Shown here: in pieces, positions 3,019-19,110 of the stretch
Layout of the letters: each line of letters opens with the position of its first letter
How positions within the stretch are numbered: position 1 is the stretch's first letter
Source of the DNA: Nitrosospira sp.
GTDB lineage: Bacteria; Pseudomonadota; Gammaproteobacteria; Burkholderiales; Nitrosomonadaceae
Assembly: GCA_013821425.1 (NCBI GenBank)
Contig: JACDGV010000002.1
Span: 124,001-188,000 of the forward strand
DNA length: 64,000 bases
Reading direction: 5' to 3'
Program-made: the position numbers and the translations under genes
Notes under the pieces: model-generated
Databases searched by the model: none
Told to the model about the DNA's origin: nothing
Seen by the model: only the letters and a program-made list of their open reading frames with translations

Positions 3019-3330
3019 ATCCCTGTTGAGGAGATTGAAATATTCAAGAAATTATCTGGCAGGTTATTCACTTTCAGGCTATGCCTGATCGCTCTGCCTG
3101 CTATGAGCAGGCGGCAGAAACAACACGAACATGGCTAAAACCCCCGTCGAATGGCTTCCGAATCAAAATAATCCTAAGTTGATCTTTCATGCCTAAACAT
3201 TTTGGGGTTTGATCTACATCGAGATATACCCGGAATAGCCGGAGAGACTGCAATGAATGGTCGAGTGATTTAAACCAGCATTTTGGGTCAATCAAGCAAA
3301 CAAACCATTAATCAACCAAGGAGAAACGCA
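3019..3330. other. gap between cusA and cusF-like gene
   Basis: 312 bases without a convincing gene. The reverse-strand frame at 3101-3295 has no ribosome site and no recognisable motif. A purine-rich ribosome binding site (ccaaggag) lies at its right edge and belongs to the next gene. No clear terminator or promoter was identified. Confidence 0.5.
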
Positions 3331-3684
3331 ATGAAATCTACCCCAGCCCTCGCTTTAACCCTCGCCTTGTCCGCATCCACCCTTGTCGTTGCACAGTCTG
3401 GTGGTATGCAGGGCATGGATATGAAAGATATGGGCGAAACGCCGCAGGTCGACGAGCCCACAGATGTTACCCATCAAATGGCTGCGGTCGTCAAAGACGT
3501 GGATATGGCAAGTGGCAAGGTGACTCTTGCGCATGAACCGGTCAAGAGTCTGAATTGGCCGGCGATGACTATGGGGTTTAGAGTCAAGGATAGGACGTTA
3601 TTCGACAAGCTCGTGACGGGCAAAAAGGTCAAAGTCGAATTCATTCAGCAAGGGTCGGACTACCTAGTGACCGCTGTGAAGTAA
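3331..3684 (+). CDS. cusF: CusF-like periplasmic copper-binding protein
   Basis: Small periplasmic metallochaperone expected to bind Cu(I)/Ag(I) and hand it to the CusCBA pump. The ATG at 3331 is chosen because AAGGAG lies about 8 bases upstream; the frame is open further upstream without a better start. The 117-residue product has a signal peptide (MKSTPALALTLALSAS...), a Met-rich stretch GGMQGMDMKDMGE, then a single OB-fold domain. The CusF metal site is recognisable: His in LAHEP, Trp in LNWPAMTMGF and the two Met residues of that motif. It follows the RND pump in the same direction, so the two probably act together. Confidence 0.9.
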   Translation: MKSTPALALTLALSASTLVVAQSGGMQGMDMKDMGETPQVDEPTDVTHQMAAVVKDVDMASGKVTLAHEPVKSLNWPAMTMGFRVKDRTLFDKLVTGKKVKVEFIQQGSDYLVTAVK

Positions 3685-3706
3685 TGACTTGATGGCATCG
3701 GAATGC

Positions 3707-3771
3707 CTGATTTGCCGCAACACGGTTCGTTGTGCCTTCGAATCAAGGGGGATCTCCAAGATTATTGTGTG
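3707..3771 (+). repeat. diverged dispersed repeat, copy A
   Basis: About 65 bases (gatttgccgca ... ggt.c.ttg.gccttcgaatca.ggg...) resembling 7611-7676 at roughly three matches in four by eye, with the block gccttcgaatca identical. Copy A lies downstream of the CusF-like gene, copy B upstream of the copper storage gene. The rest of the 364-base gap (3685-4048) holds no gene I can support, only this block and the tandem repeat at 3895. Confidence 0.5.
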
Positions 3772-3894
3772 CGTTTGTGCATTGAGAATATGTTGCCCGC
3801 CCGCCTACGTTTTGGGAGCGCTTCGAAGGCCCAAGTCCAGTTCGATATCATCCGAGCCTGCACTTCCGAGGAGATTAGACCGACGCTGACGAAC

Positions 3895-3948
3895 GTGACA
3901 AACTTTTATAACAGCACTTTGGTGACAAACTTTTATAACAGCACTTTG
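3895..3948 (+). repeat. perfect 27-bp tandem duplication
   Basis: Two head-to-tail identical copies of a 27-base unit beginning gtgacaaacttttataacag, at 3895-3921 and 3922-3948. Identity is complete, so the duplication is recent or under selection. It lies between convergent units (cusF-like gene and the DUF3299 gene), outside any supported gene. Confidence 0.9.
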
Positions 3949-4048
3949 TTTGGTAACGCACCGAATGGCCCAAACATAAAGAGTATTTATTTGTCATATG
4001 AAATGACAGAAATGATTCTTTGGCGGCGGCAAAACTCAGGAGAGAAGG

Positions 4049-4693
4049 TCACGGATAGGGGACGACCCGTTCAGCTTTCAGCTGATAGCCGGCCTGACCC
4101 ATTTCGGTGTCAACCTTGCCGACTTGCATGAGGCCGTTGACCCACATGGTATCCATGGTGCGCATGTTGGCAACGGGTTTGGCCGTTCGAACATGAATAA
4201 TCTGGTTGGAAGGGGGAGGCGGCGTATGGATACAGGCGCCGAAGTAGGGCACCAGCAAAAATTCACTGACTTTATTGCCGGCCCTTTCCAGCGGAATTAC
4301 GAATCCGGGTATGCGAATGCGTTCGCCATCAAGGGATCGTTCCACCGGCGCACTCTTCCAGGCCTCGCGAATATTTTCCAGCGCTTGGATGGCACGCGGA
4401 TCGCTGTCTTTCATCTGGTCCAGCTGCAACCCTTTCAAGGGTGCCATCGGGTCCCAGCTCTTGGGCATCAAGTCATCCCACGTCTTTTCCTTGTAAGCCA
4501 CGGGAACTGCCTGAGGCGCGCGGTTGTTCTTGCTCTTCGCAGAAGCTGGGGGTGAAAGCCTCTCCCCAATGCGGTAATCCTTATTTTCGGCTGCCGAGGA
4601 AGGTTGCGTGGCAAGGACAATCCAGCCGATCAGGAAAAGAATGGCGAAACGGGGAAAACAAAGACGCAGATAGGGGGAGGTATCCATATTCAT
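4049..4693 (-). CDS. DUF3299 protein, last gene of a Zrg-like ABC locus
   Basis: Secreted or membrane-anchored protein of the DUF3299 family, 214 residues. Seen: an N-terminal hydrophobic signal (FAILFLIGWIVLATQ...) and the family core FLLVPYFGACIHTPPPPSNQ, whose Cys and His could hold metal. It starts 3 bases after the permease stop (4697), so it is the last gene of a four-gene reverse-strand operon with DUF2796, ATPase and FtsX-type permease genes. From memory, this order recalls the zinc-regulated zrg locus of Vibrio. The role in metal uptake is therefore by analogy, and the biochemical function of DUF3299 is unknown. Confidence 0.8.
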   Translation of the reverse strand: MNMDTSPYLRLCFPRFAILFLIGWIVLATQPSSAAENKDYRIGERLSPPASAKSKNNRAPQAVPVAYKEKTWDDLMPKSWDPMAPLKGLQLDQMKDSDPRAIQALENIREAWKSAPVERSLDGERIRIPGFVIPLERAGNKVSEFLLVPYFGACIHTPPPPSNQIIHVRTAKPVANMRTMDTMWVNGLMQVGKVDTEMGQAGYQLKAERVVPYP

Positions 4694-4696
4694 TCC

Positions 4697-5980
4697 TTAC
4701 AATCTTGGCGTTAAACCATCGGCAAGGGATAACCGGTAGGCGCGGTATCCGGGAATGAGACTAACCGCAAACCCGGTTGCCATCACCAGGAAAAGTAATC
4801 GCCACGCCTCGGGCGACAGCATGCCTGTCGCCAGCGAAACGCCCAGATGGGATTCCAGCATGGGCGCGGCGAACAGGCCCAGCAGGGCCAAACCAAGCAC
4901 ACCAAGCACTGAGCCCGCCACCACCACCATTAATCCCTCGATGGCCAGCAACATGAACACCACGCGCGGGCCGGCACCCACTGAGCGAAGAATTGCCAGT
5001 TCGCGCCTGCGTTCACCCAGCCCAGCCAGCACAACGGCAACCAGACCACTGAGGCCAACGGCGATAACCAAAGCAGAAATGGCCAGTAGCGATTTTTCCA
5101 CAATGCCGACAATCGACCATAGCTCATCCAGCGCCACGCCGGGTAATACGGCCAGTAGCGGCTCGCCTTTGTACTGGTTAACGAAACGCTGCATCTGGAA
5201 AACTCCTGCACGGCTTTTCAGGCCTATGAGGGCCGCCGTGATTTCCTTCGGGGCGAGGTCGAATTTACGCGCGAATTCAGCCGGAATGGACAGCCCCGGG
5301 ATCGGCGCGCCGCCTTGCCAGTCGAGATGAATCGCCTCGATAGCCTCGAGGCTTACATGGACGCTGCGGTCCACCGAGAGGCCGGTCCGTTTGAGAATGC
5401 CGCTTACCATGAATGGTTTGTCAGCATGCTCGGTCAAGCCCAGGTTTCCCGTACCGTGATTAAGCACGATGCTGTCGCCGCTACGGTAGCCCAGTTGCTC
5501 CGCCACATCGGCACCAATCACCGCATCGAAGATATCAACAAACGGCTTGCCTTCGGCAAATGCCAGCAATCTGCGATCTCCATAACGAAAATGCTCGAAA
5601 TAAGCCGTCGTAGTGCCAATTACGGCAAAACCCCGATGCGAGTCGCCCAGCGAAATTGGCACTGCCCATGCTACTGCCGGATGCTCTGCCATCGCCTCGA
5701 AACTCGACCAACGGATGTTATGTGTCGCGTCCCCGAGACGAAATACGGCATAAAGCATGAGCTGGATAGGGCTGGTGCGCGCGCCCACCACCAGATCCGT
5801 ACCCGATACGGACTGCGAAAAACTCTCTCTCGCCTGGGTGCGCAATTGCTCGACGCCCAGCAGCAACATGACTGAAAGCCCGATGCTAACGGCCATCAAC
5901 CCAAGCGTGAGGCGCCGGTTCCACGCGCTGGCAAACGCGAGAAACACCAGTGGCTTCAGTTCGCCCCCGAAGTTTCGCAA
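4697..5980 (-). CDS. FtsX/MacB-type ABC transporter permease
   Basis: Inner-membrane permease of an ABC transporter. The 427-residue protein shows the MacB/FtsX layout: one N-terminal membrane helix (LTLGLMAVSIGLSVMLLLGV), a large periplasmic domain, then three C-terminal helices (around SLLAISALVIAVGLSGLVAV, GLMVVVAGSVLGVLGLALLG and LLFLVMATGFAVSLIPG) with ERRRELAILRSVGA in the cytoplasmic loop. The only frame-opening start is TTG at 5980, overlapping the ATPase stop by 25 bases without a strong ribosome site; a GTG a few codons in is an alternative. It pairs with the ATPase at 5956-6669. Substrate is unknown, with zinc or another metal suggested by the neighbours. Confidence 0.85.
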   Translation of the reverse strand: MRNFGGELKPLVFLAFASAWNRRLTLGLMAVSIGLSVMLLLGVEQLRTQARESFSQSVSGTDLVVGARTSPIQLMLYAVFRLGDATHNIRWSSFEAMAEHPAVAWAVPISLGDSHRGFAVIGTTTAYFEHFRYGDRRLLAFAEGKPFVDIFDAVIGADVAEQLGYRSGDSIVLNHGTGNLGLTEHADKPFMVSGILKRTGLSVDRSVHVSLEAIEAIHLDWQGGAPIPGLSIPAEFARKFDLAPKEITAALIGLKSRAGVFQMQRFVNQYKGEPLLAVLPGVALDELWSIVGIVEKSLLAISALVIAVGLSGLVAVVLAGLGERRRELAILRSVGAGPRVVFMLLAIEGLMVVVAGSVLGVLGLALLGLFAAPMLESHLGVSLATGMLSPEAWRLLFLVMATGFAVSLIPGYRAYRLSLADGLTPRL

Positions 5981-6669
5981 AATTCGTTCAGATCCACGCC
6001 ACGGCTAAAATGGGATCCCAAGCGCTTATCATGGCTGACAAAAATCAGCGTGACGTTCTCATCGTCGCAGCGCCGCAGCAGCAGATCAAGAAATTCCGCC
6101 TGGCGCCCCGCGTCCAAAGCCGAAGTCGGCTCATCTGCAATGATCAGGTCGGGGTGTCCGATCAGCGCGCGTGCGGCTGCCACGCGCTGTTGTTGCCCAA
6201 CAGATAGGGCCGTCACCGGTTGTCGTGCTAACGTCATATCAAGTCCGAGTTGATCAAGCAACGCATCAGCCGAACGTTCCAGCGATGCCGCCGCGCCAGC
6301 CAATTGAAGTGCGCGCTGCCGCCGGCGCTTCGAGAATCGGCAAGGGAGGAGTATATTCTCGCGCACAGATAGGTATGGGACCAGATTGAATTGCTGGAAC
6401 AGAAAGCCCACGTGGTCCACCCGAAACCGGTCACGGGCACTGGAGCTCAGTGCGGTCAGGTCGGTATCGAGCACGCGCAAGCGGCACGGCTGTGGCAAGA
6501 GTACACCACCCATCAAGGCCAGCAGGGTGCTCTTGCCGCTGCCGCTTGGGCCTTGCAGAAAAACGCGTTCCCCGCACCTGACCTCAAATTGAGGGATCGA
6601 TAGACGGAACCCATGCTTGCCGGGCCATTGGAAAACCAGGTTCCTGATATCAATGACAAACGGGCTCAT
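5956..6669 (-). CDS. ABC transporter ATP-binding protein (LolD/MacB class)
   Basis: Cytoplasmic ATPase that drives the neighbouring FtsX-type permease. The 237-residue protein carries Walker A GPSGSGKST, a Q-loop in FLFQQFNL, signature LSVGQQQR, Walker B LIIADEPTSALD and the switch His in FVSHD. The ATG at 6669 follows the DUF2796 stop by 7 bases and the 3' end overlaps the permease start, so the genes are translated as one unit. Family is clear. Involvement in metal handling rests only on gene order. Confidence 0.9.
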   Translation of the reverse strand: MSPFVIDIRNLVFQWPGKHGFRLSIPQFEVRCGERVFLQGPSGSGKSTLLALMGGVLLPQPCRLRVLDTDLTALSSSARDRFRVDHVGFLFQQFNLVPYLSVRENILLPCRFSKRRRQRALQLAGAAASLERSADALLDQLGLDMTLARQPVTALSVGQQQRVAAARALIGHPDLIIADEPTSALDAGRQAEFLDLLLRRCDDENVTLIFVSHDKRLGSHFSRGVDLNEFCETSGAN

Positions 6670-6676
6670 GCCCAGG

Positions 6677-7324
6677 TTACCATTTTAATCGGCTGGATTC
6701 AGGCGACAGCCTCGCGCTAGCCTGTGTCTTGGGACCGGCGACAGCGGCATCAAGACGCTTCACGCCGGGAAATATCTGGAACAGTTTAACGTCCACTCCC
6801 TGTAAAGCCTGCGGTTGAGCGCAGTGAAATTGCCAGGTTGCTTCCAGTTCCCCATGCGCGTCGCTAGGCGCGGCTTGGAGCGTACCGCCGTTCATGCCCC
6901 GAGTATTTCCAGCGACACCGCCGCCAACAACTTTATCAGCGCTTCCGGCAACCTCGGCAGAAGGTATCAACAAGTCGGGGGGAAGCACGGGTGACTCCAG
7001 TTCGGTGGATTCCAACCGGCACTGGGCCCCGGGTGTAAAGATGAAAAGGCTATCAGTTCGGTGGAACTTGAATGCCATGGTCTTGACGGCCTGACGTTGT
7101 TTTTCATTTCGGGGCGCATGCTCGAACCCCACCAGATTATCCAGCGGAGTAATCAGGTTGATTTGCACGGTAGCGTCATCAATGGCGATTTCAAGGTGCG
7201 CAACGCCATGAATATGCGCACCCAGGCCGTGCGCCCAAACCGGCGATCCCAAGCCATAGGCCGCGGCCATGGCGGCAACTGCTTGTCCCTGAAAATACCA
7301 TGCCCGCCCCATTTTTTTGTTCAT
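6677..7324 (-). CDS. DUF2796 periplasmic protein (ZrgA-like) lacking a His-rich loop
   Basis: First gene of the ABC locus. The ATG at 7324 gives a standard signal peptide ending ...GLGSPVWAHG; a TTG start at 7393 with a better ribosome site (ggggagga) would add 23 residues and is possible. The mature N-terminus has the family motif AHIHGVAHLEIAI and then NLVGFEHAP; the C-terminal half keeps WQFHCAQP and LFQIFPGVKRLDA. Members I recall carry a His/Asp-rich metal loop in the middle. Here that segment is replaced by a Gly/Ser/Pro stretch (around VVGGGVAGNTRGMNGGT) without His clusters. A periplasmic binding role for zinc is inferred from the Vibrio ZrgA analogy only. Confidence 0.82.
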   Translation of the reverse strand: MNKKMGRAWYFQGQAVAAMAAAYGLGSPVWAHGLGAHIHGVAHLEIAIDDATVQINLITPLDNLVGFEHAPRNEKQRQAVKTMAFKFHRTDSLFIFTPGAQCRLESTELESPVLPPDLLIPSAEVAGSADKVVGGGVAGNTRGMNGGTLQAAPSDAHGELEATWQFHCAQPQALQGVDVKLFQIFPGVKRLDAAVAGPKTQASARLSPESSRLKW

Positions 7325-7393
7325 CTCTTTGCTCAATTCCAGATCGTATCGATTAAAAGGAGAAGCACATATCCATTTTGGATGCAGCAGCAA

Positions 7394-7782
7394 CTGGTAA
7401 TCGCTCCTCCCCGTATTCTCTGTAGATGCAAACTCTTTAACTTTAAGAATACCACGTCAAAAAGGCATGGCTGTTCCTATGCGCATTCCATTCTCTGATC
7501 CAACAAACTGCCCGAGCCGTCCTGGCACCGGTTTATCAATAACATGCCTTCGACAAGGTACATACGGCCGGAAGTTCAATATGCGCCTTCCGTGGGCGCC
7601 GCCTCAGGAACGATTTGTCGCACTGTGGTCCATTGCGCCTTCGAATCAGGGGAGGATCTTAAAAAATTATGTTCGCGACCGTACAGACCCTCCCGAACAG
7701 TAAGCCCATCGTGTTAAATGGTTTCTGTTTGTCCGTTAAAGCTGAAGACCAACCTGTTGGCCAACCTAAAGGAGCCGCTGCT
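7394..7782. other. divergent intergenic region between the Zrg-like operon and the copper storage gene
   Basis: About 390 bases between divergent genes, so it should contain both promoters. I could not pick a convincing Zur or CueR operator by eye. It contains copy B of the dispersed repeat (7611-7676). A frame from 7669 runs into the copper storage gene but has no ribosome site at its start. Confidence 0.4.
7611..7676 (+). repeat. diverged dispersed repeat, copy B
   Basis: Counterpart of 3707-3771, with gatttgtcgca, ggtcc.ttgcgccttcgaatca and ggatctt in the same order. It ends about 105 bases before the copper storage gene start. It could be a relic of a duplicated gene end or a shared leader; reading frames in both copies are short and do not agree. 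Confidence 0.5.
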
Positions 7783-8169
7783 ATGACTCACACCACCGAC
7801 CCCAAAATGCAAGCGTGCGTCGACGCATGTAATCAATGTTATCAAACGTGCCTGCACGAAGCGATGACTCAATGCCTGGAGGCAGGCGGCAAGCACGTTG
7901 AGCCCGATCATTTCCGCCTGATGATGAACTGCGCCGAGATCTGCCAAACCTCGGTTAATTTCATGCTGAGCAGTTCGGCTTTTAGCAATCAGACGTGTAG
8001 GGTCTGCGCCGAAGTCTGCGAGGCCTGCGCGAAGAGTTGCGAACAGATCGGCATGGAAGACTGCGCCAGAGTCTGCCGCGAATGCGCCGAGAGTTGTCGC
8101 CAGATGGCTGGTTCAGGCACTAACGAAAGCGCCGGAGCCCGGGAACGCGTTCCCGCAGACGATTTGTAG
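7783..8169 (+). CDS. four-helix-bundle copper storage protein (Csp-like)
   Basis: Cys-rich helical protein that stores Cu(I) in the core of a four-helix bundle. The ATG at 7783 follows AAAGGAG. The 128-residue product has 16 cysteines spaced mainly CxxC or CxxxC along helices (ACVDACNQCYQTC, TCRVCAEVCEACAKSC, DCARVCRECAESC), with HFRLMMNCAEIC between. There is no signal peptide, so it is probably cytosolic (Csp3 type). Copper storage fits an organism with copper-dependent ammonia oxidation and fits the Cus genes nearby. The short C-terminal tail (GTNESAGARERVPADDL) is not part of the fold. Confidence 0.9.
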   Translation: MTHTTDPKMQACVDACNQCYQTCLHEAMTQCLEAGGKHVEPDHFRLMMNCAEICQTSVNFMLSSSAFSNQTCRVCAEVCEACAKSCEQIGMEDCARVCRECAESCRQMAGSGTNESAGARERVPADDL

Positions 8170-8354
8170 CAGGCCTGGTTGCTTGAGAGGACCGTGATGT
8201 CTCAGCAATAAAGCCAAAGTTCAACCGTTGCTTCTTCTTTTATTGTCTTTACGGTAGCGGTGGCATCCACCGGGTGTGATTTTTAAAAGATAACACTCCA
8301 GGGGGGCGGGAAAAACGGCTCCTGGAAGGGTCGTCGTCCCAACCTCCGCCGAAA

Positions 8355-8453
8355 ATGAACGCCAACGCAGATCAGCAGCAGGACGTGGTAGTCGTGACGG
8401 GAAGCAGCGGCTTCATCGGTTCTGCCCTCGTCAAGAACAAAGGAGCCCTATAA
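8355..8453 (+). pseudogene. N-terminal stub of an NAD-dependent epimerase/SDR gene
   Basis: An ATG at 8355 opens a 32-codon frame whose first 28 residues contain a nucleotide-binding P-loop start (VVVVTGSSGFIGSALVK), after which it runs into unrelated sequence and stops at 8451-8453. TGSSGFIGSA is the classic extended-SDR motif. The matching C-terminal part of such an enzyme appears about 8.7 kb downstream (17.1-17.57 kb), so the gene was split by insertion, with loss of its middle. The break lies within a few bases of 8432-8440. Confidence 0.85.
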
Positions 8454-8455
8454 GC

Positions 8456-8869
8456 ATGAGCATACAACTCTATGGACGCTGGAATCTCCGCATCACCCAG
8501 GCGATTCACAACTGGGAGAATCGCTTCCGTATCGAGGGTGCGACCGCGGGCAGTGGCACTTATCCGCCCACCGTCGGTTTTGATGTCGTTGCTGATGGTG
8601 CAAGCTGGTCGTTGATCGCGGAATATCGGGAGTCTGATGCTGATAGCTGGAAACCCTCGGAGATGATGATCGACCGAGGAGTCGAGCGGGTGGATATCGC
8701 AGCCGTGATCGGTGCCGAGGATCCGCTCCCTTCCCGTGACCTCGAGGACATCCAGTGGGAAGATACCTCGGCGGCACGATGCTGGAGATCGCTTACCGGC
8801 CGAGGCGGCCGGTCAGGCCTTTCAGGCCTCCATCGCAATCACGGCAGCGGCTCAATCCCGCCCTCTTGA
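8456..8869 (+). CDS. unknown protein, first gene of the GC-rich foreign operon, probably frameshifted
   Basis: I do not recognise this protein. The ATG at 8456 (GGAG 11 bases upstream) opens 137 codons: MSIQLYGRWNLRI..., then TYPPTVGFDVVADGASWSLI and AEYRESDADSW, which reads like a small beta-rich domain. The reading frame looks right to about codon 105 (LEDIQWED). Beyond about 8772 a -1 frame has the high third-position GC of the operon (starting MLEIAYRPRRPV) and ends at TGA 8881-8883, overlapping the next gene's ATG as ATGA. So either a 1-base deletion (real or a sequencing error) or a -1 recoding event separates the two parts. The intact form would be about 142 residues and coupled to the next gene. 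Confidence 0.6.
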   Translation: MSIQLYGRWNLRITQAIHNWENRFRIEGATAGSGTYPPTVGFDVVADGASWSLIAEYRESDADSWKPSEMMIDRGVERVDIAAVIGAEDPLPSRDLEDIQWEDTSAARCWRSLTGRGGRSGLSGLHRNHGSGSIPPS

Positions 8870-8879
8870 AGCTGGAGGT

Positions 8880-11800
8880 ATGATGGTCACCCAGTTCAAC
8901 GACGTGCTTATGCAAAGAGTTCTGGCCGCCGGCGCGGACGATGCCGGCAGCGAGAGCATCGAGCCAGGCAAGCCGGGCTTCATCGCCGAGCTGGCGCTCG
9001 ATTGGTTGAACGGTTTAGCCGTCGGCAAACGCCTGTCTTCCTCACCGCTGATCAAGGTGATCGCCAAGGACGAGGAGGAAGGGACGATCACCTTCCTCAT
9101 CCGCGGCCGGATGAAGATCAACAAGGGCCGCTACTCGCCGTTCGTGCGGATCGAGGTCCGGCTCCTCACGACTCAACTGGGGGTCGACGCGGTCGCCACC
9201 TTCATCGCCGAGCTCAAGATCGTCGAGAGCGAGGCGGCGCCCGTCACCGAGGTACGCATGGGACTCGGCTACGACGGGCTGATCTTCTCGGGTCGCGGCG
9301 CAGCGCGGGTCACGCCCATCGGCTTCGGTCTCGACATCTTCCTCGGCGGGCTGAGCGACCGTGGCCTGATGATCGGCATCGACGTGTTCCTGCCGGTGCC
9401 CATCCCGCTCGGGCCGAGCGGCCTCGGCCTGAACGGCATCGGCGGCGACTATGCGCATAACTTCAAGCCGCGGCTCGAGTCCGGTCTCGAAGCCGAAGGA
9501 CCCATCCTCGATCTGGAGACGGGGGACACTCCACCCGAGGAGCCGGTCGAAGCCGTCCAGAACCCCACTGCGATCCACTATATCCAATGGGCGCGTAATC
9601 CGGACGAAGCACTCGACCGCTGGGTGGAGGCGCCGCCGGATGAGACCGCCATCGGCATCGGCGTGCGCGCCTACGTGAGCGACGTGGCCTCGGCCGGGAA
9701 CCTGCTGCAGATCGGGCCCGCGGGCTTCGCGGTCTTCACACCGGGGGCGGTCATCATCCTCGGCGGCGAGGGCAAGCTCCTCAACGCCGACACGATCGGC
9801 TTCGAGGCCTTCGCGGTGATCGACGCCGCAAGCGGCAGCTTCGCGCTTGGCGGCGGAGTCGAGGTCAAGATCCCCTCGTCGGGCGCCCTGATCGAGCTGG
9901 TGGGCAAGTTCGATTCCTTCTTCTCCCGCTCCGACCCCACCAGTTGGTTCATCTCGCTCGGTACCGAGCGAGACCCCAACCGCGCCAAGTTCCTCGTCAC
10001 CTTCTCCGCCAAGACCTATTTCGAGCTCAATCACTTTCGGGTCGCATTCGGCGTAGAGCTGCAGTGGAAGGAAGGCATCAAGCTCGCGAGCATCTTCGAG
10101 GTCTTCATCCTTGGCGGCGGCGGGTTGCGGGCGCTTATCGGGTGGAACCCCCGCCAGCTCGCCGGCGCCCTGAAGCTATTCGCCGAGGCGGGCATCAAGA
10201 TCCTCAAGATCACGCTGTCCGCCAAGCTCAACGTCGAGGTCTGGGGGCATGTGCCCCAGCCCCGCATCCTCGAAGCGACGACGACGATCACGCTGAACCT
10301 GCCGTGGCCGATTCCCGACGCCAAGATCAAGATCAAGCTCCCGCGCGAGAAGGACGACATCGCGCCGGAGGTCAAGGTGCCCTTCCGGGAGGGCGAGAAC
10401 ATCCGCACCGGAGCGCTTCATGCGCTGAGCGGCCGCCAGTGGGACCTAGTGGAGCCGAGCGCCAACGCCGTCGACCAGCCGTGGCCGGACGTGCATATCG
10501 TAGTCCACTTCTCCCGCCGCGTGACCGACGAGACCGGCAAGGTCCTGGGCGCTGCGGTCGCGGCCGAGAACAATGGCGGCTACGACGTCTTCCACAGGCT
10601 GACCACGCTCGAGCTGACGGACGTCACCAATGGCGTTCCGATCGAGGACATCCAGGCTGTCTGGGCCGAAAGTCCGGACGGCGAGACCGCGCAGCTGCAC
10701 GTGCTCGCGCAGGACCCCTATTCCTGGCTGTTCTGGAACGAGAGCGTTTCGAGCGCGATCGAGATACCTGAACCGAAGACCGTGCTGCAGCTGTTCGGAC
10801 TGGGTGAAGACGCGATGTTCGAGACGCCGCGCCGCTTCGGGAAGGTCGAGATGGCGCCGGCCGAAGCGGCGACGCTCAGCAACGCCTACTCCTTCGCGCT
10901 CCCCCGCCGGACCATCGCCTGCCCGGACATGACGCTGCTGCTGCGCACGCCCGGCGGCCAGCCGATCTTTGCCGACCAGTTCCGCTTCTACGTAATCGAA
11001 CATCGGACGGTGCCCACGACACAGGCGTTCGTAAGCCTGCCGGACATGCCCTTCCCGGCGATACCGACATCATTCACCGAGATTTTCCCCGACCTCTATC
11101 TCGTCGGCTATCAGGTCACGATTTCGGCCGGAACCGCGATCGACAAGGTGCGGCTCGTCAGTCAGGCCGTTGCAGCGGGCGTCGTCCAGGAAATCGTCCT
11201 CTACGGCGTCCTCTTCCGCGAGGTGCCGGTGCCGTCCCAGACCTGCCAGGAGCGGGTGATCCTGACGCCTGGCCGCTACCGGCTCGATCTCGCTGGCACC
11301 ACGAGCGCGGTATCGGTCGACGGAAATGCCGAGCCCGAACCGCTCGATTGGTCGCTGGCCCGGGAGTTCGAGGTCGTCTTCCCATACTCACTGCGGCCAT
11401 ATCTGCGCGACACGACCGTGGGCGACAGCCGGCTCTTCCGCGACGCCGCTTTCCGCTGGGACCCGACGCTCTACGGTATCGGCTTCCCCGCCTACCGCGG
11501 CTATCTCCCCGCCGTCAGGTTCATCGTCCCCTACCTCTCAGCGATGTTCCCGACGCTGCGCTTTCACCTCGCCTATGAGGAGGAAGGCGGCCCCGTCTAC
11601 AGCTTCACGGCGGAGCCGGGACCGACCGCCGGCGGCGAGAACAGCCTGCTGGAACCTACTGAGGACTTCCTCGACTGGGTGGGCTGCCCGATCGAGAGTG
11701 ACGAGGAGCTTCTCGCGCCCGAACCGCTACCGCAGGCGGGTAGCGCTGAGGTGCGCCTCATCTTCGACGCTCCCGACGGTCAATCGACCGTGCTGGACAG

Positions 11801-12923
11801 CTGGAACTGCGTGGTCTCGCGCTTCCTCGGCTTTGCCGAACAGATGGCGCTCGGTCAGACGACGCTCAGGCAGATCTACGACGCCGACGGGCCGCACACG
11901 ATCTCGCCCTGCCTCACGCCCGGCAACCTCGGCTTTGCGAACCGGCGCAGCATCGGGGGAGGGCGGCTCGATCCGCCAGTGTTCACGGCGACTCCGGTCT
12001 TGCCGCTGCCCGGCCCCGGGCCGCTTCTCCCCGCCGACTTCCCCATCGGCGGCAACCCGCCTTTCCCGGAAGAGCTGGACGAGCCGCCGCTTAACTGGCG
12101 CCTCCCGGGCGCTATCGCTGCACATCTCGAGGATGACAGCGTGCCGCTCCCGGTCGCCTTCGCCCGGTTCGCTGTCGATAGCGGAGTAGTGTTCAGCGAT
12201 CTGCCGGGCAACCCGATGTTCGGCCTTGCCAACCCCGTCGAGGAGACGGTGGTCGAGGGCATCGCCGATGCTTCGGGCCGGCTCTTCGCCATCTGGCTGC
12301 GCACCCCCGAGCCGGTCGACTGGCGCCGCTGCACGGCATCGCTTCGCATCCGCCACTTGGTCGACGACGACGGCTGTTCGCAGGACTACGCCTATCGCCG
12401 GCCGATGGACCTCACCATCGAGGTGCTGCCCGGCCCCGATGCGAGCTCGGCTTTCCTGGTCGGAAGCCTTGGCAACATCCGGACGCGGCTGCCTCGCGGC
12501 GAATATGAGCTCGTCCTGTCCTTCGATCCGGCGGCGGCCGACCTGCCGCGGCTGCGTCCCGGCCCGGCGATCATAGGTCCGAAGGAGACGGTCATGCTCA
12601 AGTTTCTCCAGGTGAGCGGACTCACCTGGCCGCTGCCGAATGCTGCCGTCGCCGTGCCTGCCCACATGCTCGCGCAGGTGTTGGCCGCCGCCGAGCGCAG
12701 CCAGCCCGGCATCATGGCGCTCGCGGCAAGTGCCCTTGAGGAGAGGGCAGACCTGGGGTTCGCTGCACTGAGCGGCTCATCTGGGCGCACATCCGCACCG
12801 CCTGCGCCGCTCGTGCCGCGCCTCGCCGAGCGCCGTGCGAGCGCGGCGGGTCGCTCGCCGGGGCGCCCGCGGCTGCAGGTGAAACCAGCCGAACGTCTCG
12901 CAGACGCGAGCCACCCGGCCTGA
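8880..12923 (+). CDS. large beta-rich protein of unknown function (1347 aa), perhaps DUF6603-like
   Basis: Core gene of the foreign operon. The ATG at 8880 is preceded by GGAGG and overlaps the previous stop; an open frame extends upstream to 8712 but with poorer codon bias. No signal peptide and no membrane helices. Residues about 80-470 are Gly-rich amphipathic strands (GLGYDGLIFSGRG, IGFGLDIFLGGL, GPAGFAVFTPGAVIILGGEG, FALGGGVEVKIPSSGALIEL, LNLPWPIPDAKIKIKLP). The middle looks like stacked beta domains with few cysteines, and the last 80 residues are Pro/Arg-rich and probably disordered. The strand pattern reminds me of the DUF6603 family, but I could not test this. GC and third-position GC are far above flanking genes, so it was acquired by transfer. 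Confidence 0.8.
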   Translation: MMVTQFNDVLMQRVLAAGADDAGSESIEPGKPGFIAELALDWLNGLAVGKRLSSSPLIKVIAKDEEEGTITFLIRGRMKINKGRYSPFVRIEVRLLTTQLGVDAVATFIAELKIVESEAAPVTEVRMGLGYDGLIFSGRGAARVTPIGFGLDIFLGGLSDRGLMIGIDVFLPVPIPLGPSGLGLNGIGGDYAHNFKPRLESGLEAEGPILDLETGDTPPEEPVEAVQNPTAIHYIQWARNPDEALDRWVEAPPDETAIGIGVRAYVSDVASAGNLLQIGPAGFAVFTPGAVIILGGEGKLLNADTIGFEAFAVIDAASGSFALGGGVEVKIPSSGALIELVGKFDSFFSRSDPTSWFISLGTERDPNRAKFLVTFSAKTYFELNHFRVAFGVELQWKEGIKLASIFEVFILGGGGLRALIGWNPRQLAGALKLFAEAGIKILKITLSAKLNVEVWGHVPQPRILEATTTITLNLPWPIPDAKIKIKLPREKDDIAPEVKVPFREGENIRTGALHALSGRQWDLVEPSANAVDQPWPDVHIVVHFSRRVTDETGKVLGAAVAAENNGGYDVFHRLTTLELTDVTNGVPIEDIQAVWAESPDGETAQLHVLAQDPYSWLFWNESVSSAIEIPEPKTVLQLFGLGEDAMFETPRRFGKVEMAPAEAATLSNAYSFALPRRTIACPDMTLLLRTPGGQPIFADQFRFYVIEHRTVPTTQAFVSLPDMPFPAIPTSFTEIFPDLYLVGYQVTISAGTAIDKVRLVSQAVAAGVVQEIVLYGVLFREVPVPSQTCQERVILTPGRYRLDLAGTTSAVSVDGNAEPEPLDWSLAREFEVVFPYSLRPYLRDTTVGDSRLFRDAAFRWDPTLYGIGFPAYRGYLPAVRFIVPYLSAMFPTLRFHLAYEEEGGPVYSFTAEPGPTAGGENSLLEPTEDFLDWVGCPIESDEELLAPEPLPQAGSAEVRLIFDAPDGQSTVLDSWNCVVSRFLGFAEQMALGQTTLRQIYDADGPHTISPCLTPGNLGFANRRSIGGGRLDPPVFTATPVLPLPGPGPLLPADFPIGGNPPFPEELDEPPLNWRLPGAIAAHLEDDSVPLPVAFARFAVDSGVVFSDLPGNPMFGLANPVEETVVEGIADASGRLFAIWLRTPEPVDWRRCTASLRIRHLVDDDGCSQDYAYRRPMDLTIEVLPGPDASSAFLVGSLGNIRTRLPRGEYELVLSFDPAAADLPRLRPGPAIIGPKETVMLKFLQVSGLTWPLPNAAVAVPAHMLAQVLAAAERSQPGIMALAASALEERADLGFAALSGSSGRTSAPPAPLVPRLAERRASAAGRSPGRPRLQVKPAERLADASHPA

Positions 12924-12939
12924 GTAGGAGGAGAACCCG

Positions 12940-15168
12940 ATGCCTATCTTCCTGTCGGCGCTCGGTTGGGTCACGGAGGCGCCCGAGGGCAACCGGCTGC
13001 GCTGGTCCGTGCCGGTCGATGAAGTGGTGGACGGCGCCTTTCGCGGTCTCCCCGTCTCCATCGTCGTCGAGCGGTCGCTGCTACCGCTGACGAGCTTCGG
13101 CGACACGACTTTCTTCAACACGCCAAGCTGGCCGATCCCGCTCGACTGGTGGGAGACGCTCGGCGATCTTCCGGTCGGCTTCGCGCTGGCGGTCCGTCTC
13201 GCCCTGCCGAAGCCGGTCCAGGCGATCCGGTTCATCTATCAGGGGCCAGAAAACAGGGCGCGCATCTTCTCGTCTGCGGGCGAGGTGCTGATGATCCGCA
13301 CGCTCATGCCCGGCCAGATCGTGCTGGTCGAAGGCACCGAGATCGCCGAGTTGGAGTTCCTGATCGGCGGCGCGACCCTGCTGCAGACTTCCATCCTCGA
13401 CCTCTTCGCCGGACATGACGCAGGCGTGAACTTTGAGCAGATCGCGGTGTTGAACCCGCGGGCGACTGCAACCATGGACCTCGTTACGGTCGAGGCGCGT
13501 CTCTCCGGACCGTCCGAGATCGACCCGGAGCAATGGGCCGCGTTCCAGGCCGAGATCGCGGCAGCCGCGATCGCAAGCCTCCCCGATGTCACAGAGCCCG
13601 CGTTCGCCGGTATCGAGAGGTGGGCGCAGTTCAGCGCATTGCTTGCCGTGCGTTGGCGCTACTCCCTTCTCTATGGATTTGGCTTTCTCGACGGACCGGA
13701 GGCTGGTCCTGGCACTGCCGCGGACAACATAGCGTCCGACTTGCTGCTCCAGGAGATGCCGACACGGCCGGTCATCTACCGCGTCCGCTGTCGCTTCGAG
13801 GATGGCAGCCTCCAGATCAGCAACCCGATTGTCGTGCCTCCCATGCCGGCCAGTCCCCTGGCGCCGCCGCAGGACCTCGCCTACGAGGGGCCTCGCGTGC
13901 GTCTGTTCGAGGGCGACGAGTATCTCTCCGAGGCGCAGCTGACTCTCGGCGCGAACGATCGGCGGGTCCGTGGCGTAGAAACCGAGGAGGAATTTGGACC
14001 GAGCCCCATTCTTGCCACCGCGGCCATCCCCAAGACCTATCTCTTCCAGAGCTGGGAGCCGACCGACAGCAATCAGCGGATGCGGATCAACCGCGTCGCG
14101 ACGTTGCCCTTCTATGATCTCCCGGTAAGCTGCCGAGCGCGGAGCCTCGACATCTGGGACCGGACGAGCGCGTGGAGCATGCAGACGCCGCCGGTTCTGC
14201 CGGTGTTCGAGCATAGCCCGCTGCCACCGACGCTCCTCGACGCGCGGCTGAAGGACGGATTGGTCACGGTTTTCCCCAATTCGCCCGGCAACAGCTTCGC
14301 CGGCTGGGAACCGGATCACGCGGCGGCGAACACGCCGGGCACGGTGCTTGAGGTCATGCAGCGCATCAGCGAGCCGGCGATCGTCGAGATCTCGCTCGGG
14401 CAATCCGAGTTCGTGAGCTCCGTCCAAGGCGATCGGTTCGAGCTCTTCCGGGCGCCTTTCCTGGCGTCGCTCGCCAACCCGGAACGTTTCGAGGGCGGTT
14501 ACCTCATCGCCGCAGGGATGCGCGCCACCATTCGGGAGATCGACGCCAGCAGCGTTGCCTTCTCGCCCATTCCGGACGGCGCCGATACTACGGCGATGCC
14601 GGGCGCGGGTACGGCGCGCCTGCAGCAGGCCCCGAACCATCCCGATCTTTTCGCGCCTGTCACGAGCTTCGACGTGAACGGCGTGCCGGATCAGATCGTC
14701 CTCGCCCCCGGGGCACCGGACCCAGTGGGCGCAGCCAAGACCATCTACTACGCACTCCGCGTCGACATGGGGATCGTGACCGGGGGGCTCGGCAACATGG
14801 TCGGTGTCATCCGGCACCCGGATCGGCCATCCACGCCCCCGCCGTTTTCGGTTGAGGTGCTCGGCGTCGATTTCTACAATCGCACCATGATCCGCATTCG
14901 CTTCGCCGAGGAGGCAAACGACGGCCCCTTCGTCGTCACTTGGGCGGACGGGATCATCGACGCGGCCGCCTATCATGATGCGGCGATCGAAGGCGACTAC
15001 GGGCCACAGATGGCACTGCATGGGCTTGAGCTTTTCGAGAGCTTATCGCTGCCCGTCCAGACCACGCTCGAGCGCACCGTCACGTTCGGCGTACAGGCGA
15101 AGACTGAAGGCGGCTATGTTTCCGGCTATGTGCTCCTGTCGGTCGTCCTGCCCGTCTATCAGCCATGA
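12940..15168 (+). CDS. unknown 742-aa protein with Ig/FN3-like segments, third gene of the foreign operon
   Basis: I do not recognise this protein. It starts 16 bases after the previous stop with a strong ribosome site (aggagg) and shares the same very high GC. It opens MPIFLSALGWVTEAPEGNRL with no signal peptide. Several stretches read like Ig/fibronectin-type strands: GNRLRWSVPVDE near the start, a YRVRCRFEDGSLQISNP strand pair, and a domain boundary CRARSLDIWDRTSAWS followed by PLPPTLLDARLKDG. The C-terminus ends in hydrophobic strands (SGYVLLSVVLPVYQP). With the 1347-residue neighbour it probably forms one functional unit, perhaps a structural or surface assembly. Any function is speculative. 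Confidence 0.8.
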   Translation: MPIFLSALGWVTEAPEGNRLRWSVPVDEVVDGAFRGLPVSIVVERSLLPLTSFGDTTFFNTPSWPIPLDWWETLGDLPVGFALAVRLALPKPVQAIRFIYQGPENRARIFSSAGEVLMIRTLMPGQIVLVEGTEIAELEFLIGGATLLQTSILDLFAGHDAGVNFEQIAVLNPRATATMDLVTVEARLSGPSEIDPEQWAAFQAEIAAAAIASLPDVTEPAFAGIERWAQFSALLAVRWRYSLLYGFGFLDGPEAGPGTAADNIASDLLLQEMPTRPVIYRVRCRFEDGSLQISNPIVVPPMPASPLAPPQDLAYEGPRVRLFEGDEYLSEAQLTLGANDRRVRGVETEEEFGPSPILATAAIPKTYLFQSWEPTDSNQRMRINRVATLPFYDLPVSCRARSLDIWDRTSAWSMQTPPVLPVFEHSPLPPTLLDARLKDGLVTVFPNSPGNSFAGWEPDHAAANTPGTVLEVMQRISEPAIVEISLGQSEFVSSVQGDRFELFRAPFLASLANPERFEGGYLIAAGMRATIREIDASSVAFSPIPDGADTTAMPGAGTARLQQAPNHPDLFAPVTSFDVNGVPDQIVLAPGAPDPVGAAKTIYYALRVDMGIVTGGLGNMVGVIRHPDRPSTPPPFSVEVLGVDFYNRTMIRIRFAEEANDGPFVVTWADGIIDAAAYHDAAIEGDYGPQMALHGLELFESLSLPVQTTLERTVTFGVQAKTEGGYVSGYVLLSVVLPVYQP

Positions 15169-15219
15169 CGCCTGTCGACTGGCGCAGTCAGGCCGACCCG
15201 ATCGCCACAGGCTTGAAAA

Positions 15220-15954
15220 GGCTCTGTTGCAAAAAATAAGAAGGGTGGTGCACTATTGTGTTTTTCAGGGCAGATCATCAATGTCAGATTTCAAATGGCG
15301 TCATTTTCGTGGGGAGATGATTCTGGGTTGTGTCCGGTGGTATTGTAAATAAGGGATCAGCTATCGTGATCTGGCGGAAATAATGCTGGAACGTGGTCTT
15401 GCTGTAGATCACGCGACGCTCTACCGTTGGGTTCAGCATTACGCGCCGGAAATGGAAAAGCGCCTGCGGTGGTATTGGAAACCTTCCATGGGCTACAGTT
15501 GGCGAGTGGATGAAACCTACGTCAAAGTAAAAGGGGAATGGACGTATCTCTACCGGGCAGTTGATAAACAAGGCCATACGATTGATTTTTACCTCTCCCC
15601 AACGCGCAATACCCACGCCACCCAACGCTTCCTGGGGAAGGCCCTGAAATCCATGAAAACCCTGGGCGCACCCCGGCGCTATCAATACCGACAAGGCTCC
15701 GCCTTATGGTGCCTGCCATTACCGAATTAAAAGCGGAAGGAAAGTGCCCGCCGGACACCGTACACCGGCAGGTAAAATACTTGAACAATATTATCGAAGC
15801 CGATCACGGCAAGCTCAAACGCTTGATAAACCCGGTGCGGGGCTTTAAATCGATGAAAACCGCCTTATTGAAAGGCAATTCGATATCTATAGCGCATAAT
15901 CAATCAGATCAAGGGCACAGTTCTGGTTTGTCATTTTTTTTTTGCAACAGAGCC
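15220..15954 (+). mobile_element. IS6-family insertion sequence, decayed (about 735 bp)
   Basis: Bounded by 17-bp terminal inverted repeats: ggctctgttgcaaaaaa at 15220-15236 and its complement ending at 15954 (...gcaacagagcc). These match the IS26/IS6-type end GGnnCTGTTGCAAA. Length and internal transposase fit the family. No 8-bp target duplication is seen (cttgaaaa left, ataatagc right), which suggests rearrangement after insertion or entry by cointegration. It sits at the right end of the GC-rich operon. Confidence 0.9.
15281..15899 (+). pseudogene. IS6-family DDE transposase, inactivated
   Basis: Starts MSDFKWRHFRGEMILGCVRW at 15281, then meets an in-frame TAA at about 15350 before GISYRDLAEIMLERGL. 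The catalytic core is recognisable: VDHATLYRWVQHYAPE, WRVDETYVKVKGEWTYLYRA (first Asp of the DDE triad), then LSPTRNTHATQRFL. Frameshifts near 15675 and 15710 separate this from INTDKAPPYG and ITELKAEGKCPPDTVHRQ. The conserved RQVKYLNNIIEADHG follows, and the C-terminus after GFKSMKTA is lost. At least one stop and two frameshifts make it non-functional. Confidence 0.9.
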
Positions 15955-16050
15955 ATAATAGCCACTTTGGAAAAAAAGGGCGTTTATTTTTCCTATACGC
16001 TGCCGCATAATTTTCTGTTTTTCATGGCATTGAAGACGAGGAGGATCAAG

Positions 16051-16428
16051 ATGGGCAAGGTAACAAAACAAAAAGAAATGGTCAGCGTTAAGTGGTATCA
16101 GATCATAACGGTGCACACGGATGAAGGCGTCATCTTTCGCCGTTATCACCATTTGAGCAGCGAAGAGCAACGAAGAATCGATCTCGGTGTAGCGACCGCG
16201 TATCGAGAATTAATAAAAACCAGAGCGGCGGATACATCTGGCGATCTAGGCGCAGAGCCCACTGTTCAAGAACTTTCGTGCGGGATCGACGCTCACCATG
16301 GCGGGGGCGGAACGATAAGCGTTGGGTGCTCCCATGGATTCTACTGGTGCGTTGTGTCGATAAGTGGCGACGAGGGTATCTCTGCCCAGTGTGGGAAAGA
16401 CACACCGACGCCAGCAACACCGGGTTGA
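16051..16428 (+). CDS. hypothetical protein, low support
   Basis: An ATG at 16051 with a good ribosome site (gaggagg, 8 bases upstream) opens 125 codons. The first half is plausible protein (KWYQIITVHTDEGVIFRRYH, SSEEQRRIDLGVATAYRELI). The second half turns Gly/Cys-rich without pattern (HHGGGGTISVGC) and may be read-through into unrelated debris. I do not recognise a family. It lies between the dead IS6 element and the ParB fragment, so a relic of the imported segment is likely. Confidence 0.4.
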   Translation: MGKVTKQKEMVSVKWYQIITVHTDEGVIFRRYHHLSSEEQRRIDLGVATAYRELIKTRAADTSGDLGAEPTVQELSCGIDAHHGGGGTISVGCSHGFYWCVVSISGDEGISAQCGKDTPTPATPG

Positions 16429-16619
16429 TGTCAAAATGCTCCTCGCTGGATCAAGGTACTGACCCGCTTCGGCTTCATTCCAGCCACCTGATTCACCCGC
16501 CCCCACCAGCCGATGACTGTCAGAGTCAGGTCAGCGTTCGTCTTGAAGGCGGATTCTTTCACGTTAAAGCTGCTTGACCTATCGCCAGCCAGTAGCCAAT
16601 CAAAAGATAGATGAGCCGA

Positions 16620-16916
16620 TTACTGCTCCTGTGGTTTAGCCGCCTTAAAGTTATCCGGCAGCCAACGCAAGCCGGATAACGTCTGCTCCGCCTGCCGTAC
16701 CAAATCGCCTTTTTTGAGGCCACTCATGCTTTGCGCGTGTTGAGGCGAAACGGTTTCAGCTACGATCGTGAGAATCCGATCTTTGCTGACGTGAGAAAGG
16801 TAGCTGTCCGCTGTTGGCTCCCACCAGTCGGCCATGTCTAGATTCAACGCGTTCATCAGGCCTGAAACCTCCTTTGACGGGATATTCTCCCGTTCCGCCA
16901 CGGTATTGTGTCTGGC
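16620..16916 (-). pseudogene. C-terminal fragment of a plasmid-type ParB partition protein
   Basis: The reverse-strand frame, closed upstream by a stop at 16917-16919, reads ...AERENIPSKEVSGLMNALNL, then MADWWEPTADSYLSHVSK, DRILTIVAETVSP and LSGLRWLPDNFK. The W.PTADSY...VSKDRIL and GWLP-type ending are typical of the C-terminal part of ParB/RepB proteins encoded by plasmids and integrative elements. The nuclease and HTH domains that should precede it are absent. It is evidence that part of the 8.4-17.1 kb insert came from a plasmid or ICE. Confidence 0.75.
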
Positions 16917-17005
16917 TCACGAAAAGGAAAAAATCGTACGCGTAATAGGCGTTCCGTCTGGTTAAGACCAGAGATGGATTCGCATTAGGTCAGGAAAGGC
17001 CGGAA

Positions 17006-17764
17006 TTGGCCCTAAAGCATCTCGTATTTGAAGTCGGTTGGGGTGTGCTCCAACCGGACACAGGGCATGGCAGATCAAGTGCGGAGCGACTTGCGACGAC
17101 ATGCCAATCGCTTAGCGTACAAAAACGTCCGTTTCGTGAACTGACCCCTATTTACGCGGGCCGCCTCGACACCGGCCAATCCTGGCTGCATCTTGATGAC
17201 CTGACCGAAGCGTTGCTGCAAATCGTCATGCACCGGCATGAGCTCCCGCCGGAACTGCCACTGCTGCTTGGCGAAAGCGAAGTCATGGGTTTCGATGAAA
17301 TCCAGCGCGAACTTGGGCAGTTAATTCACGGTGAGGCATGGCGAACAATAGAAATACCCAAGCTGGTGGCGAAAACAGGTGCGTGGATGGAAAATGACAT
17401 CCTTCAAGAGGATCCTTTCGTCAAGCCATGGATGATCGATTCATCCGAGGATCATTACGAGCTGGATACGTCGCGCGCACGCGAGCTGCTAGGGTGGAAA
17501 CCGCGATTCAGCCTCCGTGAAACGCTGCCGAAAATGGTTGATGCACTTAAACGCGACCCCGTCTCTTTCTATGGCGGCAATAAGCTCAACGAAGCAAAAG
17601 TTGCGGCGCAAAACGTGACAGCCCCAAAGGGCGAGCACGAGGGCAATGACCCGGTTGGCGCGCACGAGATGATGCGCGAACACATGCTGGGCATGCGCAA
17701 GATGCACTTCGACATGCTGTGGGTGCAGCATTATCTCAATCTGCTGCTGGGCGCAATGGGCTAA
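17006..17764 (+). pseudogene. C-terminal part of the split SDR-epimerase running into the start of a VKOR-like domain
   Basis: From about 17110 the frame carries extended-SDR C-terminal features: YAGRLDTGQSWLHLDDLTEA, LIHGEAWRTIEIPKLVAKTG, PWMIDSSEDHYELDTSRA and ARELLGWKPRFSLRETLPK. Upstream of that the sequence does not look homologous, so the stated start is only the first ATG. After the SDR end (KRDPVSFYGGNKLNEAKV) it continues into HMLGMRKMHFDMLWVQHYLN, the start of the membrane protein that follows, and stops early at 17764. The Rossmann half sits at 8355. The gene is dead: split by an 8.7-kb insertion and missing its middle. Confidence 0.85.
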
Positions 17765-18651
17765 CGCCACGATTGGTGTCTGGCTGCTGTTTGCAGATGG
17801 GCTACATAAACAGTGCCTGGGATCCGTTTTTCAGTGGGACCAAGAAACTGAACGGCACCGAAACGATCATTACCTCCGATGTCTCCAAGGCCTGGCCTGT
17901 GGCCGATGCAGGGCTTGGCGGAGTCGCATACATGTTCGAAGTATTGATGGGCGTAATGGGCGGGCGGCAACTCTGGCGGACCATGCCCTGGATGGTCACG
18001 ATGTTCGGGTTTGTCGTGGTGCCCCTGGGTACTGTCAGCATCTACTTCATTATTATTCAGCCGATTGTCATCGGCACCTGGTGCAGCCTGTGTTTGCTGG
18101 CGGGTATCGCGCTGCTGGTCATGATCCCCTACAGCCTGGACGAACTGATTGCGATGGGGCAATACCTGGCGCAAAGCGTTCGCCGCGGAGAGCCCTTCTG
18201 GCGCACGTTTTTCCGTGGCGGCGCGCAACCGGAGGGCGCCCGGGACCAGCACCCCGATTTTGACTCGCCGCTTGACGATGCCGCGCGCTCGGCTTACCGC
18301 GGCGTGACCATGCCCTGGACGCTGGTGGCCAGTACTGGGCTGGGTCTCTGGTTGATTTTTAGCAGGCTGATATTCGGGACCGAACCCCCAATGGCGGACA
18401 GTGATCACCTGGTCGGCGCGCTCATCATCACCGTGGCCGTTATCGCCATGGCGGAGGTCGCCCGTCCGCTGCGCTTTTTAAACATCGGCTTCGGTCTATG
18501 GCTGATCGCGGCGCCATGGATGCTCGAGGGTGCTTCCACGACCGCTTCAGGGACGGGAGTACTTGTCGGACTTGCGGTAGTTGCTCTAAGTTTTCCGCGG
18601 GGAAGGCTCAGCAAGGAGCACTACGGCAGTTGGGACCGCTTTGTTGTGTAA
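17765..18651 (+). pseudogene. vitamin K epoxide reductase/SPW-repeat membrane protein with internal deletions
   Basis: Remainder of a multi-helix protein of the VKOR plus SPW-repeat type. A short piece in one frame (WANATIGVWLLFA, 17758-17796) matches an early SPW helix. Then the frame starting at 17797 reads MGYINSAWDPFF, SKAWPVADAGLGGVAYMFEV, the VKOR segment IGTWCSLCLLAGIALLVMIP (with the redox CxxC) and C-terminal SPW helices (RPLRFLNIGFGLWLIAAPWM) ending SKEHYGSWDRFVV. Two deletions with frame changes, just before 17758 and near 17796, remove roughly 200 codons compared with full-length relatives I recall. An ATG at 17797 could still yield a 284-residue protein containing CxxC, but no ribosome site is visible. 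Confidence 0.8.
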
Positions 18652-18689
18652 CAAGGATAAATTTCAAAGGACACTTATTGATACCTAAG

Positions 18690-19110
18690 CAGCGCCAGAA
18701 AGCCGATCACGTCCATTGTCGCGGGTTCGGACATCACCTTCCTTGGCCAGATTTCCCGCAGCATCGATCGAAATGGGACCACCTCGCTCATCGCGAAGAT
18801 AGTCAATAGCTGTAGCTGTATGAGTGTTCGGGTCGAACGCGACGATGGTGCTTCGCCCAAATTACCTGCAAGCAGTTCTCCGCTGTACACGCCAAAGTCT
18901 TCCGGAGCGAAAGCCAAGCCTTAGGGGGTATCAGCAGACCGCGATCATTCCATATGTGCAGCAGGGCTGATGCGTCTAACTGTGCCAGCGCCCCAAGGTC
19001 CCGCGCCGCTCGCTTCTTTACCTCCAAGGATATGTCCCGGTCTTGCCAAGTCCTCCGGGGTCTTGGCATAGGGCATATATAGGCTCGTTCCGCCCGGGCC
19101 CGTCTCCGGC
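18690..19110 (-). pseudogene. relic of a TIGR03118-type secreted beta-propeller protein
   Basis: Reverse-strand pieces in several frames match the C-terminal repeats of TIGR03118 proteins, from upstream to downstream: SLYMPYAKTPEDLARPG, then ARDLGALAQLDASALLHIWN, then LAFAPEDFGVYSGELLAGNL followed by a frame change where GTI.AFDP would be expected. Stops and shifts between the pieces rule out a working gene. N- and C-terminal parts are missing. Confidence 0.65.

Follow-up and report, generated by a model that had tools for sequence, protein, structure and literature searches.

DUF6603 (PF20248, presumably IPR046538 in InterPro) is, to our knowledge, a catalogued domain without known function. 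No DUF6603 or PF20248 paper was found in the open-licence PubMed Central (PMC) literature, which is weak evidence of novelty because only open-licence PMC papers were covered. In Pseudomonadota, Streptomyces, Paenibacillus and haloarchaea, those DUF6603 genes that were read stand at the head of a series of large genes, uncharacterised and all in one orientation. The locus under study consists of two adjacent genes, termed gene 2 and gene 3, in a stretch of 64,000 nucleotides from Nitrosospira sp. (positions 124,001–188,000 of contig JACDGV010000002.1, in a genome of 3.14 Mb), hereafter the window. Gene 2 (P0002; 8880..12923, + strand) encodes a large protein of 1347 amino acids (aa), and gene 3 (P0003; 12940..15168, + strand) encodes its partner of 742 aa, both being intact open reading frames (ORFs). 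By profile comparison, residues ~136–530 of gene 2 (9285..10469, + strand) are placed in the DUF6603 superfamily by way of intermediate proteins, and not in the Pfam family as defined; this links a Pfam-undetected family to DUF6603. True DUF6603 loci are referred to below as class I, and the compact, divergent branch to which the window belongs as class II. The reading that we tentatively favour takes the pair for a module of two genes gained by horizontal transfer, a class II branch of an undescribed DUF6603-centred system, which may form a beta-rich scaffold.

The kinship of gene 2 with DUF6603 is traced through a chain of sequences. Residues ~165–523 of gene 2 match Mycetohabitans proteins of 2337–2496 aa (blastp E 7e-20), which in turn align over ~800 residues with a protein of 2009 aa in genome G552 (E 6.6e-54). 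An A. oryzae plasmid protein joins the Mycetohabitans and G552 intermediates; the 2009-aa protein itself reaches PF20248 with an E-value of 0.084 only. In hhalign, where the E-values are those of single profile-pair comparisons, the gene 2 family scored 99.6% (E 5.9e-25) against the four intermediates from Mycetohabitans, G552 and A. oryzae, the four intermediates scored 97.5% (E 5.8e-12) against 13 DUF6603 sequences, and all seven sequences, that is, the gene 2 family and the intermediates, scored 97.4% (E 1.5e-11) against DUF6603 over 387 columns; reversed DUF6603 control sequences scored 8.4% and 3.2%. The 13 DUF6603 domains were located with a model built from an eight-stretch set that included a wrong-strand row, and the domains were taken anew. 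A DUF6603-like link of the large protein had been tentatively suggested in a first-pass annotation of this DNA, and the alignments via intermediates show that the suggestion was right at the superfamily level. Towards its C-terminus, gene 2 has a further conserved region (residues ~1096–1227; 12165..12560, + strand) with WLRTPEPVDWRR and LPRGEY, and the former motif is weakly common to the Mycetohabitans proteins.

Both genes have intact frames on the same strand and are separated by a gap of 16 bp, just as the first-pass annotation had it for coupled genes of 1347 and 742 residues, and the ribosome sites that it reported can be seen by eye as Shine-Dalgarno-like stretches before each gene (GGAGG and AGGAGGAG). 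The longest open stretch covers 1404 codons; in 100 base shuffles the longest one averaged 266 and never exceeded 487. Genes 2 and 3 together are open across 2089 codons. The guanine-plus-cytosine (GC) content of 8456–15168 is 66.0%, whereas the rest of the 320 kb of contig covered, sampled in 600 overlapping windows of that size, averages 55.7% (sd 2.0) and peaks at 61.9%, none of the 600 reaching 65%; similarly, GC at third codon positions (GC3) is 0.855 in gene 2 and 0.821 in gene 3, compared with 0.545–0.698 in 14 other window genes measured. The earlier statement that GC and GC3 exceed those of the neighbours is thereby put into figures, and since open-stretch length, GC and GC3 are all outliers, genes 2 and 3 can be regarded as real genes of foreign composition.

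A simple hydropathy scan found no signal-peptide-like N-terminus in the products of genes 2 and 3, in agreement with what had been said of the large protein; averaged over 19 residues, hydropathy peaks at 1.68 in gene 2 (borderline; the stretch at residue 275) and at 1.41 in gene 3. No significant match was obtained in Pfam, NCBIfam, PHROGs or PADLOC for the two proteins or for the product of gene 1, a short ORF upstream of them, and the PADLOC defence models had no match at E ≤ 0.1 for any of these three or for four partner proteins. No enzyme motif or known enzyme domain was found in genes 2 and 3 with Pfam and NCBIfam, as the first reading of the sequence had supposed. PDB sequences matched genes 2 and 3 at chance level only, and of the family profiles of the two genes, one gave no PDB match and the other a chance-level best E of 0.29; over all the PDB searches that gave matches, the best E-values were 0.29–0.68. 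The Ig/FN3-like strands formerly proposed for gene 3 were seen by eye only; for an FN3/Ig-type adhesin, gene 3 has no Pfam match at E ≤ 1 and no hydrophobic N-terminus. The DUF6603 region of gene 2 shows, by eye, glycine-rich alternating hydrophobic strands. Such strands, and a phospholipase D-like neighbour in Mycetohabitans, would be in keeping with a gene 2 protein whose extended beta-groove binds or moves lipid, gene 3 then serving as its adaptor, but no Pfam match to any lipid-transfer family was obtained, and we consider this function very improbable.

Relatives of the pair are rare. A tblastn search of plasmids located one in Azospirillum thermophilum, in which the gene 2 relative has 36% identity with 81% covered, and directly after it lies the gene 3 relative with 34% identity and 97% covered. 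The genes concerned are WP_109332721 and WP_109332723, which make up the large protein in two frames, and WP_109332724, the gene 3 relative; the N-terminal part of the large gene lies in a second, overlapping frame (14540–14977 and 14974–18759 of the fetched locus), owing to either a sequencing error or a true frame change. A pattern scan of 84,980 species genomes, which used a two-sequence alignment (window and A. thermophilum) and misses members without the exact patterns, gave 43 pattern matches with Myxococcus xanthus AM003 (NZ_JABFNS010000041.1) as the sole relative, where both genes are full length and the gene 3 relative lies directly after the large gene. A first scan of genome contigs with the single window protein had given 15 pattern matches and no relative; the viral contigs scanned held no relative of the pair, and 50,697 phage records had no match to gene 2, gene 3 or the DUF6603 domain.

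Both genes are adjacent in 3/3 genomes with the full-length family, and their order is the same as in the window. Unlike the window, with its spacing of 16 bp, A. thermophilum and M. xanthus have a spacing of −4, that is, a 4-bp overlap, and neither has gene 1; the large gene of A. thermophilum differs further in its two overlapping frames, and the pair of M. xanthus AM003 in its prophage-like setting. Of the trio that had been suspected to be conserved elsewhere, genes 2 and 3 do occur together in these two species, while gene 1 is absent there. Identity is 34–39% between the window and either relative and 54–62% between A. thermophilum and M. xanthus; counted over aligned codons, the figures are 37–39% and 55–62%. 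Nonsynonymous divergence (dN) is below synonymous divergence (dS) in 6/6 comparisons among the three pairs, including Azospirillum–Myxococcus (0.32 vs 0.70 and 0.38 vs 0.91), which points to constraint, with dS made uncertain by codon bias at high GC.

Genome surveys, whose samples overlap and whose search prefilter may miss remote members, gave single matches. The match was the window's own genome in three of them (1/299, 1/61 and 1/398) and the already known M. xanthus in two (1/145 and 1/195), while a survey of 337 genomes gave one match, the new distant relative in genome G552. Gene 2 was found in 0/22 congeners searched. Ammonia monooxygenase, looked for in the genome of the window, gave no match, and the control for that search likewise matched nowhere.

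The setting in M. xanthus AM003 raises another explanation, namely that the pair is a cargo or effector complex of a phage-tail-like contractile injection system. There, the pair lies between phage-tail genes, with a baseplate hub and base_V upstream and Baseplate_J and a weak Tail_P2_I (E 0.0085) downstream; a Paenibacillus DUF6603 gene is also ~9 kb from a baseplate V gene, and the genome of the window holds an extracellular contractile injection system (eCIS)-type cluster on another contig (C48:30000-65000), ten proteins of which were scanned, including eCIS_core (1637 aa), an AAA ATPase with winged helix, Baseplate_J (1002 aa), gp25 and base_V. However, portal, terminase and tape-measure genes mark the Myxococcus element as prophage-like rather than an eCIS, and these head genes lower the probability of an injection-system origin; moreover, transposase and glycosyltransferase genes stand beside the pair, and the tail module also holds a GGDEF gene. 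The eCIS-type cluster, besides being on another contig, showed no significant similarity to the pair in the stretches compared. M. xanthus is the only one of the loci read with the pair inside a tail gene cluster, and none of the genes annotated up to 15 kb away is a tail gene in A. thermophilum or at two Mycetohabitans loci, the other loci not having been searched systematically. Neither the window proteins nor the Myxococcus pair matched PHROGs, and the phage records gave no match either. A role as injection-system cargo is not consistent between loci and is judged quite unlikely; the two-gene module of the DUF6603 superfamily is the preferred reading.

The gene runs around DUF6603 provide the frame for this reading. 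PF20248 occurs in 8/349 Pseudomonadota genomes, and in the class I loci of Pseudomonadota, the DUF6603 gene is accompanied by gene B in 8/8, gene C in 8/8 and gene D in 7/8 loci (E ≤ 1e-5; example run at 2077–18745 of one fetched locus), where the counts include the query locus, two loci come from one genus, and at one locus a single ORF is matched by both B and C. The DUF6603 domain is also present in 13 plasmid records from Streptomyces, Embleya, Paenibacillus, Paraburkholderia and three haloarchaea, and in 6/6 plasmid loci read from these records, it is followed by further large uncharacterised genes on the same strand. In Paenibacillus and on one Streptomyces plasmid these are homologues of B, C and D; behind DUF6603 on two other Streptomyces and two haloarchaeal plasmids stands another giant-gene set, whose genes are homologous among themselves, with bacteria–archaea homology down to a blastp E of 2.5e-88. 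Meanwhile, in class II, a large same-strand ORF comes directly after the DUF6603-like gene in 5/7 loci (window, A. thermophilum, M. xanthus, G552 and A. oryzae). Two Mycetohabitans loci, out of four records found, were read; both have their large partner on the upstream side, separated from the DUF6603-like gene by a phospholipase D-like gene. It is possible, although we hold this with reserve, that DUF6603 proteins and their giant partners constitute an undescribed multi-protein machine, mobile across bacteria and haloarchaea, with the window pair as its minimal two-subunit form.

A short motif offers a lead as to the partners. G-x-x-L-[RH]-W stands at residue 17 in all three members of the gene 3 family, gene 3 of the window included, and near the start of the Mycetohabitans and several D proteins; it is present in 6/14 partner proteins, three of which form one family, and in 0/9 DUF6603-side proteins, with shuffles giving 0.2–4.2% per protein. 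On this lead alone, gene 3 might be a counterpart of the other DUF6603 partners.

Neighbouring genes vary between the relatives. A phospholipase D-like gene is found near Mycetohabitans and one plasmid relative; in class I, two genomes of one genus have a fatty-acid-synthesis-like set (by eye) and a metallo-beta-lactamase-like gene upstream, with an M64 peptidase gene in one of them; a PhoD-like gene and a CATRA/CHAT conflict locus (as annotated) are near other relatives, and recombinases near some. We infer that gene 2 and gene 3 are translated together and that their products, two soluble proteins without evident signal peptide, would bind each other and form a cytoplasmic beta-rich scaffold. 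Accessory enzymes (phospholipase D-like, metallo-beta-lactamase-like, M64 peptidase-like or PhoD-like) might be carried or placed by such scaffolds, which would most likely serve in contact or conflict with other organisms; the patchy spread, plasmids, recombinases and insertion elements would fit a mobile trait directed at such organisms. The structural assembly or secreted particle put forward in the first-pass annotation is likewise conjectural. Because the window branch is compact, with two genes and ~2,100 residues in all, the system would be practical to express and solve.

Several observations weigh against this picture. At the level of gene 2, PF20248 has no match in the protein (E ≤ 1) or anywhere in the genome of the window, the gene 2 family alone scored only 13.5% against the 13 DUF6603 sequences, and with a smaller set, in which one of the eight DUF6603 stretches had been read on the wrong strand, the score was 0.4–7.6%; in addition, a profile of the DUF6603-like region found only the window's own member in 398 Pseudomonadota genomes. 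At the level of the partner, the gene 3 family profile scored <1% against all other partners, the D family among them, B and C not having been sought by profile in the window, and gene 2 is followed by only gene 3 and an insertion sequence (IS) element. The G-x-x-L-[RH]-W motif is missing from 8/14 partner proteins, was noticed before it was tested, and is, as we take it, close to a common beta-sandwich pattern. The neighbour enzymes, too, differ from locus to locus, and none stands beside the window pair.

The pair lies inside what resembles an interrupted chromosomal gene. The right flank (17006..18651, + strand; sequence comparison) is the 3' part of an epimerase/VKOR/SPW gene and is split between two frames; from ~17108 it corresponds to the C-terminal part, matching residues ~187–836 of a copy that forms an open frame of 845 aa at another place in this genome. 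On the left, 8355..8435 (+ strand) appears to be the 5' remnant of the interrupted epimerase-like gene: it contains VVVVTGSSGFIGSALVK, with a Rossmann-type motif as judged by eye, and looks like the beginning of the 845-aa copy, the match being short and without significance on its own in tblastn. The similarity of both flanks to one host gene supports an interruption by the inserted stretch and upholds the earlier placement of the genes inside a broken chromosomal gene. Residues ~25–187 of the 845-aa copy have no counterpart at either flank, so the insertion seems to have been accompanied by loss. Between the host-gene parts are gene 1, the pair, ~1.1 kb of other DNA and, downstream of the pair, an IS6/IS240-like element of 735 bp (15220..15954, + strand) with identical 14-bp terminal inverted repeats and a broken transposase. 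To the left of the insertion, window 64–8169 contains an RND pump (ACR_tran), an FtsX/ABC transporter pair, a ZrgA-like zinc uptake protein and a cysteine-rich DUF326 protein, perhaps a metal-handling neighbourhood.

Gene 1 (8456..8869, + strand) had been described as a single ORF of 142 residues joined to gene 2 by an ATGA overlap; the ORF stops at 8869 after 137 aa, and the TGA at 8881–8883, which overlaps the ATG of gene 2, ends another frame. After ~8726, its codon-position GC shifts from position 3 towards position 2, which suggests a frame change by either a true mutation or a sequencing error. No relative of gene 1 was found in 72,556 plasmid records, the 50,697 phage records or the fetched loci, other whole genomes not having been searched, and gene 1 is therefore excluded from the conserved unit. 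The frame break of gene 1, the broken IS transposase, the interrupted host gene and the lack of gene 2 in the congeners searched would all suit a pair that is a functionless passenger in this genome, left in a fossil island. Such an end is unlikely, as genes 2 and 3 have stayed open over their 2089 codons with strong third-position GC, and the same pair has dN below dS between two other genomes.

Compared with the described systems, the window pair, read as a class II module, differs from the DUF6603 run of Pseudomonadota in that the B, C and D partners are not recognisable beside gene 2. The Mycetohabitans proteins, of which those of M. endofungorum are annotated as DUF6603, are nearly double the length of gene 2, and their loci have a different arrangement, with the large partner upstream and the phospholipase D-like gene between, but they share with gene 2 the DUF6603-like region and the short C-terminal motif. 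With respect to DUF6603 (PF20248) itself, gene 2 is below Pfam detection, and its 1347 aa compare with ~780 to 3350 aa in the DUF6603 proteins read; the likeness consists in residues ~136–530, which align via the intermediates over most of the domain, and in the large partner genes on the same strand.

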